Assembly: GCA_029204225.1 (NCBI GenBank)
Contig: CM055109.1
Coordinates: 23,834,422-23,898,421, forward strand
Direction of reading: 5' to 3'
DNA from: Diphasiastrum complanatum
Lineage: Eukaryota; Streptophyta; Lycopodiopsida; Lycopodiales; Lycopodiaceae
DNA: 64,000 bases
The notes beneath the pieces are model-generated. The model was not told where the DNA came from. It made no database searches and was given only the letters and a program-made list of their open reading frames with translations. A program made the position numbers and the translations under genes. Shown here in pieces: positions 360 to 64,000 of the stretch. Position 1 is the stretch's first letter; every line of letters starts with the position of its first letter.

Positions 360-3300
360 CTGCAAACATCGAAATCAAAGTAATCTCTTTCTCTCTCTCT
401 CTCTCTCTCTCTCTCTCTCTCTCTCTCTCTCTCTCTAGCAATGGTGATCCTCTCTCTCCAGCAATGATCCTCAAAAATACACGTAGCGGCCTCCTGCATC
501 TATGTCCTGTGGCTGCTGGAAAAGCGCTCCTATAGCGATGTTGAACGAGAGACTAGAGAATACATTGGTCTAAAATTGCCCATCCTGAAATGCAGTGTTG
601 AAGGTAGTATTTTGAAAATTTAAAGAAGATGTGAATGAAGAAGGCAATGAGCCGCTGACCCTCTCTATGACAACGATGGATGCCTGATTTTGCCTGACAC
701 TGAAATTGAAGGTGCGACCATCACTGCTGTCCACCTGCCGTTGAAGAAGGCCTTGCTTTGAGTTGAATGAAGAACCAGATCATTAATGATAGTGATGGTG
801 CAGCACATGCTTCTTAGACACTCTTGTTGAAGTCAATACTTTTGTAGAATGCAACAGTGAGCAGAATCAAAAACCTCATCTCTCTCTCCCTCTCTCTCTC
901 TCTCTCTCTCTCTCTCTCAGTTCAGTTAGTAGTCCATCGCACTTCAAGATTGATCATGGATCTTTCTTTGAGCAGACTCACTGGTTGTTGGGCTCTGAGA
1001 TTTTAAGTCATCATCTCTCTCTGGAAATGGCGCCCTCACGGAAGAAGGCCAGCCCTCGCTCCACCTCTCCACGGGCCAGCCCTCCACGGCCTAATGGGCC
1101 TCTTGCTGACTTGGCGTCCTCCCCTGCTAAAGTGGCGCCCTCCCCTGCCACATCCCCTACGGAGATGGCAGCTGATACGGACCTTGCTGCGGCTGTTGCC
1201 TGTGTGGCAGCCGTACCTGCTGTACCAGATGTACCTGTACCGGATGTACCTGCAACTGTACCTGCGAGGGCACAGGTTCACCATACCTTGATTTGTCACC
1301 TGATATCAGATTTGCAGAGCAAGGGCATATTTTCCTCACTGGGGATTTTAATGCTCGAACCTCCTCACGACAGTCCGAGTTTTATGACATCACCGACCAT
1401 CTCCGCATTCATGCTGTTGACAGCGACGAGGCGGGAGTTACCAGGGTTTCAGAGGACAGCTTGGGACCTATTACCCCCTATGGTGAGCATTTGTTGCAGT
1501 TTGGAGAGGCACATGAGTTAGCCATTTACAATGGTCTAACTTGTTGGCCAGATTCCGGCAGTTATACTTGTCATCCTCATAGTGGCGGACATAGTGTTGT
1601 GGACTATCTCATGGGATCACCATCCTCCATACCTCTCATCTCTGATTTTCACATCTCCCCCACCACTCTCTCTCATCACTCCTTTCTCTCCTTTGCTATC
1701 GGCCGCCTCCCACCCCCTTAGTTATCCTCACATCCCCTGCTTACCCAGGCACCCAAGTATACATTCAGCTCTTTATACGCACCAGTCTATCAGGAAATTC
1801 TTACCTCCCTACTCCATTCGTTTCCGCACAATAGTACACTCGAGACTCAAGCAGCTTTCCTTAGCACCTCTCTTCATGCTGCTGCTTCTCTAGCTTTTCC
1901 ATCTAAGGCCCATAAAGGCAAACACACACGTCCCTCGTCACTACGCCCTCCACACCCTCCATGGTCTTCATCATCTTGTCACCCATGCACGCAGTCATGA
2001 ACCTCACCGCCTTCGCTCTGCTCGCCGTTCTTACCATCGCACACTCCGTCGGAAAAAGCGTGCTTATGATGACTCTGAAGGAAAACGCCTCGTTGACCTT
2101 CTCTTCAGTTCTTCTTCAGGCGCCTTTTGGCGTGAGTTTATCCCTCTCGTACTCCACCACCTCTCCTGGAAGACCTTCGCATATGGACCAACTACGCTAC
2201 CAGTCTATATACCATACCTACTGACACACCTATCTCTATCTCCCCTCGTCCCTCTGAGTTCACCTCTTCACCGCTGACATGGTACTTGCGGCCATCAAGA
2301 AAATGAAATCCCATAAAGCAAGAGACATTGAAGACCTTGAGTCTGAACTCCTAATCCATGCTACCGACCTCCTTGCTCCCACACTAGCCACTCTCCTCAA
2401 TTCCGCCGTTGTCTTTGGCTTCCCTTCATCCTGGTGCACCAACATCATCCATCCTATCCATAAAAATGGTGATCCCATGATTCCTGGTAACTACCGCACT
2501 ATCATGATCAGACATGTCCTCACTAAGCTTTATGGTACCATACTCCAGTCTGCAGTAAGCTCAGAGGCGGAATTGAGGAGATTACATGCATTGGGACAGG
2601 CAGGTTTCCGGGCTCATTACTCTACCACTGACCATATTTTCACACTTAGGGCTTTGATTGAGGAAGCTAAGCACAGGAAAGAAAGGGTTTACTGCTGTTT
2701 TGTGGACTTCAGGACAGCCGTTGATTCTGTACCATGCTCCCTACTCATTCAGAGACTTCGGGGTCTTGGTTTCTCCACGGATATTGTTCTAGCAGTGATG
2801 GCTCTTTATGAGAAGGTCTTGGGATGCTTCCGACATGGTAGTGGTATCTCTTATCACATTTGGAGCACCATTGGGGTGAAACAGGGATGCTCTCTTTCGC
2901 CGGTTCTTTTTGGATTGTACATTGATGAGTTAGAGCGAGCCATCTCACAGTGTGGAGGAGCTGGTTGTAGACTTGGCACCATCTTGATTGCTATTCTCTT
3001 GTATGCGGATGATGTGGTACTAGTATCCACGACCAGAGAGGGATTACAGAGGCAGCTAGATTGTCTACAGGGTTTCTGTACCAGATGGGGATTGGGGGTG
3101 AACACTGCGAAGACCAAGGTTATGGTCTTCAACACTTCTCGAGCCTTCATGCAGCGCCAGGAGCTCATGCTTGATGGACGGGCCTTAGAGGTAGTTTCCT
3201 CGTATACATATTTGGGGATACTCTTTTCTGGTCCTACTTTCAGCATGCGACAAGCAGGCACCACTCGACTTGGGAAGGGGCATTCCTCCCTTGTTCAGCT

Positions 3301-63100: not shown

Positions 63101-64000
63101 AAAGAAAGAAGAAAGAAAGAAAGCTTTATTAACGTCTTTTCCATGCCAAAAGGCATATAAGATGAGCAAGTAAATCAGATAAAGTGGAACCAAGACGGAA
63201 CAATGTCGTCAAACAACATAACTAAACCAAAACTAACTAAGAAGAGGATAATGTCCAGGGTTATATGGTACGTAGACCATTTACAGAATCAACTGGCATC
63301 TCTTCAGTGCTCTAACTCTCTCACAAAACTCTGAACAGTCTCAGATATCTCATTAATAGTAGCAGGTTTAATATCTACAAAACGGATGATACCATCCTGT
63401 TCTTGAACCTGAATGAAAGTAAGGTCTTCATCCAAGTATATCGTGGTGCCCCGCAGTGTAGATCTCTTATCTAGCGCTTCATGACGACCAGTGGCAGATG
63501 CAAAGCGTATAACAAGAGTACTTGGATCTTTCTTAGGTCGCCATGCAGTATCCATATCTTTGTGGTGGTGTTGAAGACTCTCTTCAAGAAACTTTTTAGC
63601 TTCACCAACAGCATCATGGGAGTTCGTAATACCTCTGATTCGGACATTAAGAGCCCTTTGCTCTCGCAAATGGCTCTCGGTGAACGTAGCTGAGATAAAA
63701 GAAGGTGGAGGTGGTAGAACAGCAGTATTAGGACCTTTAAGCACATCTGCCCAGGATCGGACAGCGGTATGATGTTGTTCCACTTGACTTTCAAGCTGTT
63801 GGATCTTAGCTGAAGTAGTCGAATGAGAGGAAGCTTCAATTTTGACAGCTGCAACTTCTTTCTTGAGATCATCGATAGACGAATCTAGTTTTTGAAGATG
63901 AGATTGAACAGCTTGGATCATAGCTTCAAGAGAAAGAAGGTTTTTCCGATGGTCGTTGAGATATTCATAGGAACGTAACTGATCTGCACGAATGACGGAG
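63101..64000 (-). mobile_element. LINE copy G, ORF1-only ('half LINE')
   Basis: Minus strand. ORF1 runs from the window edge to 63304, then about 190 bp of 3' UTR, the hairpin TGCC-TTTT-GGCA (63145-63154 region), GGAAAAGACGTTAATAAAGC and a (TTTC)n tail (63121 down to 63101). There is no room for endonuclease or RT. The tail lies in copy F's ORF1, so G inserted into F. Confidence 0.85.
63304..64000 (-). CDS. LINE G ORF1 protein (partial, open)
   Basis: The frame is open to the right edge (at least 232 codons). ORF1 proteins bind the element's RNA and act as chaperones. In order: SVIRADQLRSYEYLN at the edge; a heptad-rich coiled coil about codons 27-80 (IQAVQSHLQKLDSSIDDLKK, IQQLESQVEQ); a linker SWADVLKGPN; then an RRM-like region starting LNVRIRGITNSHDAVGEAKK with RNP-style TLVIRFASATGRHEAL and LRGTTIYLDEDLT. 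It ends SETVQSFVRELEH. Coiled coil then RRM then a short C-terminal domain is the type organisation of many L1-like ORF1 proteins. No stop or frameshift is visible, in contrast to every other LINE piece here. Confidence 0.8.
   Translation of the reverse strand, partial: SVIRADQLRSYEYLNDHRKNLLSLEAMIQAVQSHLQKLDSSIDDLKKEVAAVKIEASSHSTTSAKIQQLESQVEQHHTAVRSWADVLKGPNTAVLPPPPSFISATFTESHLREQRALNVRIRGITNSHDAVGEAKKFLEESLQHHHKDMDTAWRPKKDPSTLVIRFASATGRHEALDKRSTLRGTTIYLDEDLTFIQVQEQDGIIRFVDIKPATINEISETVQSFVRELEH

Follow-up and report, generated by a model that had tools for sequence, protein, structure and literature searches.

A LINE family of the clubmoss Diphasiastrum complanatum with a conserved 3' stem-loop and a preference for (CT)n microsatellites

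A stretch of 64,000 nucleotides of the Diphasiastrum complanatum genome (assembly GCA_029204225.1, contig CM055109.1, positions 23,834,422 to 23,898,421; hereafter the window) contains several copies of a long interspersed nuclear element (LINE). These copies very probably belong to a large and diverse LINE family of this clubmoss, with an endonuclease of the apurinic/apyrimidinic (APE) type, which integrates preferentially into (CT)n microsatellites; the probability of this reading is put at about 0.85. CT targeting is a strong preference and is not strict. The original prediction, made from the letters of the window, described a plant LINE with a 3' hairpin and a CT tail that targets CT in one orientation, stacks on its own tails and uses CT as target DNA, and these parts are supported; that the RT would require the hairpin and that its CT-rich RNA end would anneal to GA strands, as it also supposed, are proposals.

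The 3' motif of the family occurs in 3,893 exact copies (1913 on the plus and 1980 on the minus strand) in the 1.745-Gb assembly, and its reversed control in none. A D. complanatum protein matches contig C3 of this assembly at 100% along all of its 430 residues. Its members share a fixed 3' end and differ in their 5' truncation, the pattern by which LINEs are recognized; they diverge strongly in the coding region, the last 110 bp being conserved and the last 45 bp especially so. A young subfamily is also present, with 93–100% identity to the query among its 40 best-scored matches. Junctions and tails were sampled at the first 40 of the 3,893 exact motif places, all on contig C1.

CT tracts at insertion sites

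The LINE at locus L024 is inserted in a dispersed repeat that bears a (CT)n tract. A search with this repeat gave 511 candidates, 40 of which were scored; apart from the source, 38 places were obtained in this way, and 31 of them were examined, 12 with both flanks and 19 as half-site windows. At seven distinct loci CT stands at the insertion point, in the same orientation, without a LINE (L049, L053 in two pieces, L054, L055, L056 = L057, L058 and L070), and at seven distinct loci a LINE occupies that tract (L024, L059 = L060, L062, L073 = L078, L074, L075 and L076), and in 7 of 7 the sense strand of the LINE coincides with the CT strand (p 0.016). The presence of CT at loci without the LINE, together with distinct LINEs at the same tract, is decisive for CT as target DNA. 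At L059, to which L060 is near-identical, the 5' junction is non-CT, and the paralogues as well as its own right side have CT; this junction marks the left border of the tract, so that insertion into CT can also leave a 5' junction without CT.

Neither class includes L050, L051, L052, L061, L063 = L079, L064 = L065, L067, L071, L072 and L077. There is no CT at the point in L050, L052 and L071, TG stands there in L051, and L072 and L077 are unrelated or unclear. L066, L068 and L069, with CT followed by sequence resembling the LINE 5' part, were not counted (L068 and L069 match other sampled loci there). A LINE is present at 7 of 14 CT-bearing versus 0 of 4 CT-lacking loci, a difference that is not significant alone (p 0.12).

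The sampled copies, their neighbours and the window copies gave 60 starts, or 57 distinct ones after the removal of three that were counted twice in the overlapping loci L013, L014 and L015. A CT tract (length at least 12, same strand) lies within 15 bp of the 5' start at 14 of the 57 distinct starts and a GA tract at none, and among 6,000 random non-element positions the corresponding shares are 0.6% for CT and 0.3% for GA; the enrichment of CT has a p of 5e-19 against the 0.6% background. When the distance is widened to 400 bp, the counts are 26 for CT and 0 for GA, with backgrounds of 6.8% and 2.2%. An AC/TG tract was found within 15 bp of one start only. Enrichment of CT over random sites had been named as a check in the original prediction.

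An aligned relative continues upstream at 15 of the 20 CT junctions examined, with CT fused at different internal positions and 0–9 nt of microhomology; the remaining five have no aligned relative. The varying points of fusion place CT outside the element. A target-site duplication would be invisible within a dinucleotide repeat. The alternative of a CT tract internal to the element was rejected on the variable fusion points at these 15 of 20 junctions; it failed at every junction with an aligned relative, in agreement with the original view of CT as target.

The 5' untranslated region (UTR) between the CT tract and the ATG of open reading frame (ORF) 1 is highly variable, from 3 to several hundred bases (window copy A, L012, L017, L029 and others). 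In L021 an intronless open stretch (oriented 3250–4000; locus minus strand about 5520–6270) encodes a portion of a CobW-type protein (PF02492, E 8e-22). It is preceded by the TTTC tail of one copy and followed by ORF1 of another, and is apparently a host transcript captured as 5' UTR.

Two further observations concern sequences beside CT tracts. A common 300-bp repeat ends directly in a CT tract at L012 (3072) and L016 (6149), and may be a second CT target or a repeat that itself terminates in CT. In L025 (oriented 5940–5986) the sequence AAAAGATTAATAAAAC, to the left of the CT tract, resembles a diverged LINE 3' end and adjoins the end of another dispersed repeat.

Window copies, stacks and alternative explanations

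Within the window, CT tracts directly 5' of copies were seen at 879–918, 4244–4265, 5425–5442, 61878–61958, 62314–62351 and 52752–52803. The 20-nt motif of the 3' end occurs at 4224–4243 (plus strand, exact), 62294–62313 (plus, one mismatch), 63123–63142 (minus, one mismatch) and 52478–52497 (minus, three mismatches), with 0.02 expected by chance according to shuffling. In copy B the hairpin lies at 5396–5417, with one base altered and the motif shortened. The window copies with motif or hairpin ends, copy B included, run on into (TTTC)n/(CT)n tails. The copies and tracts are as follows.

879–918, plus: (TC)20 tract directly 5' of copy A
919–1026, plus: 5' untranslated part of copy A, with no match in other sampled copies
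1027–4243, plus: body of copy A, with an ORF1 remnant from the ATG at 1027, an endonuclease remnant at about 1322–1718, the reverse transcriptase (RT) ORF at 2279–3805 and the 3' UTR
4203–4232, plus: composite 3' hairpin of copy A (outer stem GTCTT/AAGAC, inner stem ATGCC-TTTT-GGCAT)
4244–4265, plus: (TTTC)n/CT tail of copy A, with copy B starting directly behind it
4266–5424, plus: copy B, 5'-truncated, joined directly to the tail of copy A
5425–5442, plus: CT-rich tail of copy B, directly 5' of copy C
5443–5930, plus: 5' part of copy C, ORF1-like sequence (3' limit approximate)
52414–52477, minus: 3' CT tail of a minus-strand copy (AG on the plus strand)
52478–52751, minus: 5'-truncated copy with 3' hairpin at 52489–52518
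52752–52803, minus: CT tract (GA on the plus strand) directly 5' of the copy at 52478–52751
60705–61877, plus: LINE fragment ending at a CT tract
61878–61958, plus: (TC)40 tract between the fragment at 60705–61877 and the truncated copy at 61959–62313
61959–62313, plus: 5'-truncated copy with 3' hairpin at 62274–62302
62314–62351, plus: (TTTC)n(CT)n tail of the copy at 61959–62313, directly followed by the 5' part of the next copy
62352–63100, plus: further copy, 5' part and ORF1 fragment, interrupted by a minus copy
63101–64000, minus: copy with tail at 63101–63122, hairpin at 63134–63163 and ORF1-like frame at 63307–63999, its 5' end lying beyond the window

Stacking of this kind extends beyond the window. 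Among 100 consecutive motif places on C1 there are 16 neighbouring pairs within 5 kb, about 1 being expected under a uniform distribution; 14 of them are on the same strand versus 2 on opposite strands, and 41 of the 83 more distant pairs are on the same strand (Fisher p 0.0055). For pairs up to 10 kb apart the ratio of same to opposite strand is 15 to 5, one opposite pair looking like a duplicate of another. The same-strand excess, together with copies B and C of the window, bears out the predicted head-to-tail stacking on CT tails. Members of a stack begin at different internal points, which disfavours simple tandem duplication, and tandem duplication as the whole cause of the stacks was rejected on these differing truncation points.

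The tails themselves raise the alternative that no targeting takes place, the CT tracts being the copies' own tails and the stacks resulting from end-to-end template jumping of the RT from one RNA to the tail of another, or from tandem duplication. R2-like RTs jump between templates in vitro, most sampled copies have CT-rich tails and clusters of copies are common; template jumping could contribute to some stacks. Against this explanation, CT-preceded copies were found with no recognized LINE upstream in the sequence examined (over some 6 to 8 kb at L024 and L027 and over 1.3 kb at L029), loci of the same repeat have CT without a LINE while distinct LINEs sit at that tract, and the truncation points of stack neighbours speak against simple duplication. 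It is an improbable explanation.

An equally poor chance is given to near-random insertion with CT sites that are merely permissive through open chromatin, slippage or nick-prone DNA. According to a review concerned with microsatellites as "landing pads" (PMC12477314), plant transposable elements often have microsatellites around them; some copies of the present family (L010, L028 and the window copy ending at 63123) do lie outside CT. The strand asymmetry at distinct starts nevertheless exceeds the CT excess of the background, with 14 versus 0 within 15 bp and 26 versus 0 within 400 bp, AC/TG tracts are next to a single start, and the LINEs at the L024 repeat share one orientation at 7 of 7 loci (p 0.016); if the preference were one for structure or chromatin alone, orientation would be left free. 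A role of the CT tract as the element's own promoter or as a segment of its 5' UTR, to which several long copies with CT, a variable 5' UTR and then the ORF1 ATG might point, plant core promoters being CT-rich at times, has a negligible probability and is refuted for truncated copies, which are joined to CT at many internal positions and whose target CT exists at loci without a LINE, although such a role might be a bonus for full-length copies.

Several observations weigh against preferential CT targeting or narrow the ground on which it stands. The usable empty-site test comes from one repeat family only, in which both flanks were read for L024 and L059 = L060 and only the 3' side for L062, L073 = L078, L074, L075 and L076; at L062 the right junction is damaged and lacks CT. 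L027 offers no empty site, its second copy on contig C983 being filled as well, and at L018 and L025 a repeat ends at or near the left junction, so that they carry no empty-site information. The background on the element strand is itself two- to threefold richer in CT than in GA, and a plain sign test therefore overstates the CT/GA asymmetry. No CT tract of at least 12 lies within 15 bp of 43 of the 57 starts, which are thus not directly behind CT. Some of these non-CT starts follow a short TTTC/CT or TTC tail of the preceding copy (L011, L022, L038 and window copy B), and some long copies have a variable 5' UTR interposed between CT and ORF1. At 11 of the 21 examined, the sequence in common with other loci extends up to or past the boundary, which means that these 11 are not clean 5' ends; the other ten are without explanation. 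A strict specificity, with nearly all copies in the repeat, is not what was found: 12 of the 40 sampled copies have no CT run of at least 16 on the 3' side (in L039 only because the run is briefly interrupted), L010 and L028 are directly adjoined by a CT tract on neither side, and the minus copy ending at 63123 is inserted at a non-CT site in the ORF1 sequence of another copy.

The 3' end and the coding domains

The TGCC-TTTT-GGCA hairpin of the original prediction exists and is conserved in the window copies (one base altered in copy B), and it proved to be longer than described, as the inner stem of a larger structure composed of GTCTT, ATGCC-TTTT-GGCAT and AAGAC. Of 41 sequences folded singly, 32 form both stems, the outer GTCTT/AAGAC stem included. 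Among 33 3' ends (29 distinct), 94.8% of the cells pair, a value reached in 1 of 500 shuffles, and changes on both sides occur at 4 of 10 pairs, spread over both stems together, a number reached in 0 of 500 shuffles. The compensatory changes that the original prediction had suggested looking for in folded 3' ends are present in both stems. The covariation score of this set is 0.120 for the true partners versus 0.082 with partners slid by two columns. Support is weaker in all 37 ends of an earlier set, with 91.3% paired, three pairs with double changes, 2 of 500 shuffles as high and a score of 0.082 versus 0.081.

The 33-end set consists of the earlier 37 rows minus ten plus six new rows. Four rows were dropped because their hairpins repeat those of retained rows exactly or almost exactly (L012, L016, L019 and L017:6564), and six as gapped, shifted or divergent (L026, L032, L035, L038, L043 and window:62270); the 3' ends of L026, L032 and L038 are without the hairpin stems. 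The sample is biased towards the motif by which it was found. As judged from these sequences, covariation supports a plant LINE with a conserved 3' stem-loop. Rfam at the gathering threshold gave no match anywhere in the window.

The tails that follow the 3' end in the 40 sampled copies are of the TTTC, the CT and rarely the TTC type. They start with TTTC in 26 of 40, and a CT run of at least 16 follows the 3' end in 28 of 40. A poly(A) tail was ruled out, none being found in the 40 sampled copies, which together with the tails in the window confirms the predicted (TTTC)n/(CT)n tail in its place.

The RT domain encoded by the window ORF at 2279–3805 is of the non-LTR type (PF00078, E 7e-28), and the solved structures that it matched are the RTs of R2 and LINE-1. 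An AP-type endonuclease was recognized in the related copy L021:3387-4178:- through matches above the cut-off to PF14529 (E 6e-8) as well as PF03372 (E 5e-7), and in the window copies by tblastn only. For ORF1, a PDB profile search matched mainly coiled-coil proteins, no LINE ORF1 being among the 60 of 84 matches listed; beyond the coiled coil, where ORF1 of the Tx1/L1 group has RRM-like and C-terminal domains, it may resemble L1, as judged by eye. An AlphaFold model of ORF1 with a mean confidence (pLDDT) of 46 was discarded as too poor.

In a tree of 99 database hits the window RT falls into a clade of 19 sequences (support 1.0) with nine RTs of the fern Adiantum nelumboides, at 43–53% identity to it. 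The tree consists of database hits only, without a Tx1 reference, and eight further Adiantum hits are not in it. The likeness to the fern elements is one of RT grouping. One member of the clade is labelled Enterobacter and presumably represents contamination. Judging by breaks in the profile match, the coding regions of L013, L018, L037, L047 and window copy A appear to have lost internal stretches of some hundred bases.

Proposed mechanism and related elements

Target-primed reverse transcription into nicked GA strands fits the orientation, the adjoining CT, the truncation and the stacking. At its 3' end the element RNA would carry the conserved hairpin, then AUUAAUAAAGC, and finally a short tail rich in UUUC/CU. 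The RT, which probably recognizes the hairpin, would start reverse transcription on the nicked GA strand, and pairing of the pyrimidine tail with GA may help priming. Early stops of cDNA synthesis would be frequent, the 5' end being joined to the upstream CT with 0–9 nt of microhomology. Because each copy brings its own pyrimidine tail, a new copy would create a new landing site, and head-to-tail stacks could build up. The position of the nick, the annealing of RNA to target, the recognition of the hairpin and the order of events within stacks are what we infer.

A tentative extension, which we hold to be somewhat less probable than its opposite, is a self-feeding system in which the LINE both needs and makes CT microsatellites: the TTTC/CT tail would expand to (CT)n and serve as the next landing site, LINE stacks and genomic CT microsatellites thereby amplifying each other. 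Plant 5' UTRs frequently contain (CT)n. If the self-feeding reading is true, insertion on the sense strand would put copies behind host promoters, which could be the reason for the variable 5' UTRs and for the captured host transcript in one copy.

Some animal LINEs are already known to target microsatellites. Those specific to TC, TTC and TG repeats include Kibi and Koshi of the Tx1 clade, and Waldo, an insect LINE of the R1 clade, inserts into ACAY repeats. The animal TC-, TTC- and TG-repeat LINEs share the microsatellite target with the clubmoss LINE and, in the Tx1 case, the APE endonuclease, a comparison that concerns target and endonuclease type and not RT kinship. The clubmoss LINE differs from animal repeat-specific LINEs in its plant host, in a preference that is not strict, in the use of its own tails as targets and in the composite 3' hairpin. 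Waldo is likewise an APE-class LINE in short tandem repeats and differs in repeat, host and 3' end, RT kinship again being no part of the comparison. The Togen families of (TG)n, related to NeSL, and some HERO families are also named as microsatellite-specific animal LINEs in passages of one paper (PMC4640811); NeSL-type and HERO elements have a restriction-like endonuclease, in contrast to the APE of the clubmoss LINE.

Among plants, L1-clade LINEs of the maize/sorghum group are described, in passages of a review, as having stringent 3' recognition and a conserved 3'-end stem-loop with compensatory changes (Ohshima 2013, PMC3747384), and poly(A) is named there for a related LINE and short interspersed nuclear element (SINE) pair of Chlamydomonas. 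The clubmoss LINE shares with this stringent group the land plant host and the conserved 3' stem-loop with compensatory changes, whereas its TTTC/CT tail, hairpin sequence and target preference are different. A literature search covering titles and abstract openings found no description of a plant LINE that targets a microsatellite, which is weak evidence, subscription papers lying outside the search.

If the preference for CT is true, LINEs that target microsatellites are not confined to animals, and a plant system with thousands of copies becomes available for the joint study of 3'-end recognition, target choice and microsatellite origin. It also suggests that some of the CT microsatellites in a genome may have served LINEs as tails and targets. 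The stringent RNA recognition by early plant L1-type LINEs, as put forward in passages of the same review (PMC3747384), would then become testable in a non-seed plant.

Other observations concern the assembly and the rest of the window. The small contigs C983, C1447, C2008, C2147 and others are near-identical repeats of chromosome segments, probably alternative haplotypes and as such useful for presence/absence tests. The window holds an F-box gene (PF00646) at 28141–29490, which has a D. complanatum relative on contig C3, and, at 10679–11567, a 448-bp unit in two tandem copies that match at 97%.

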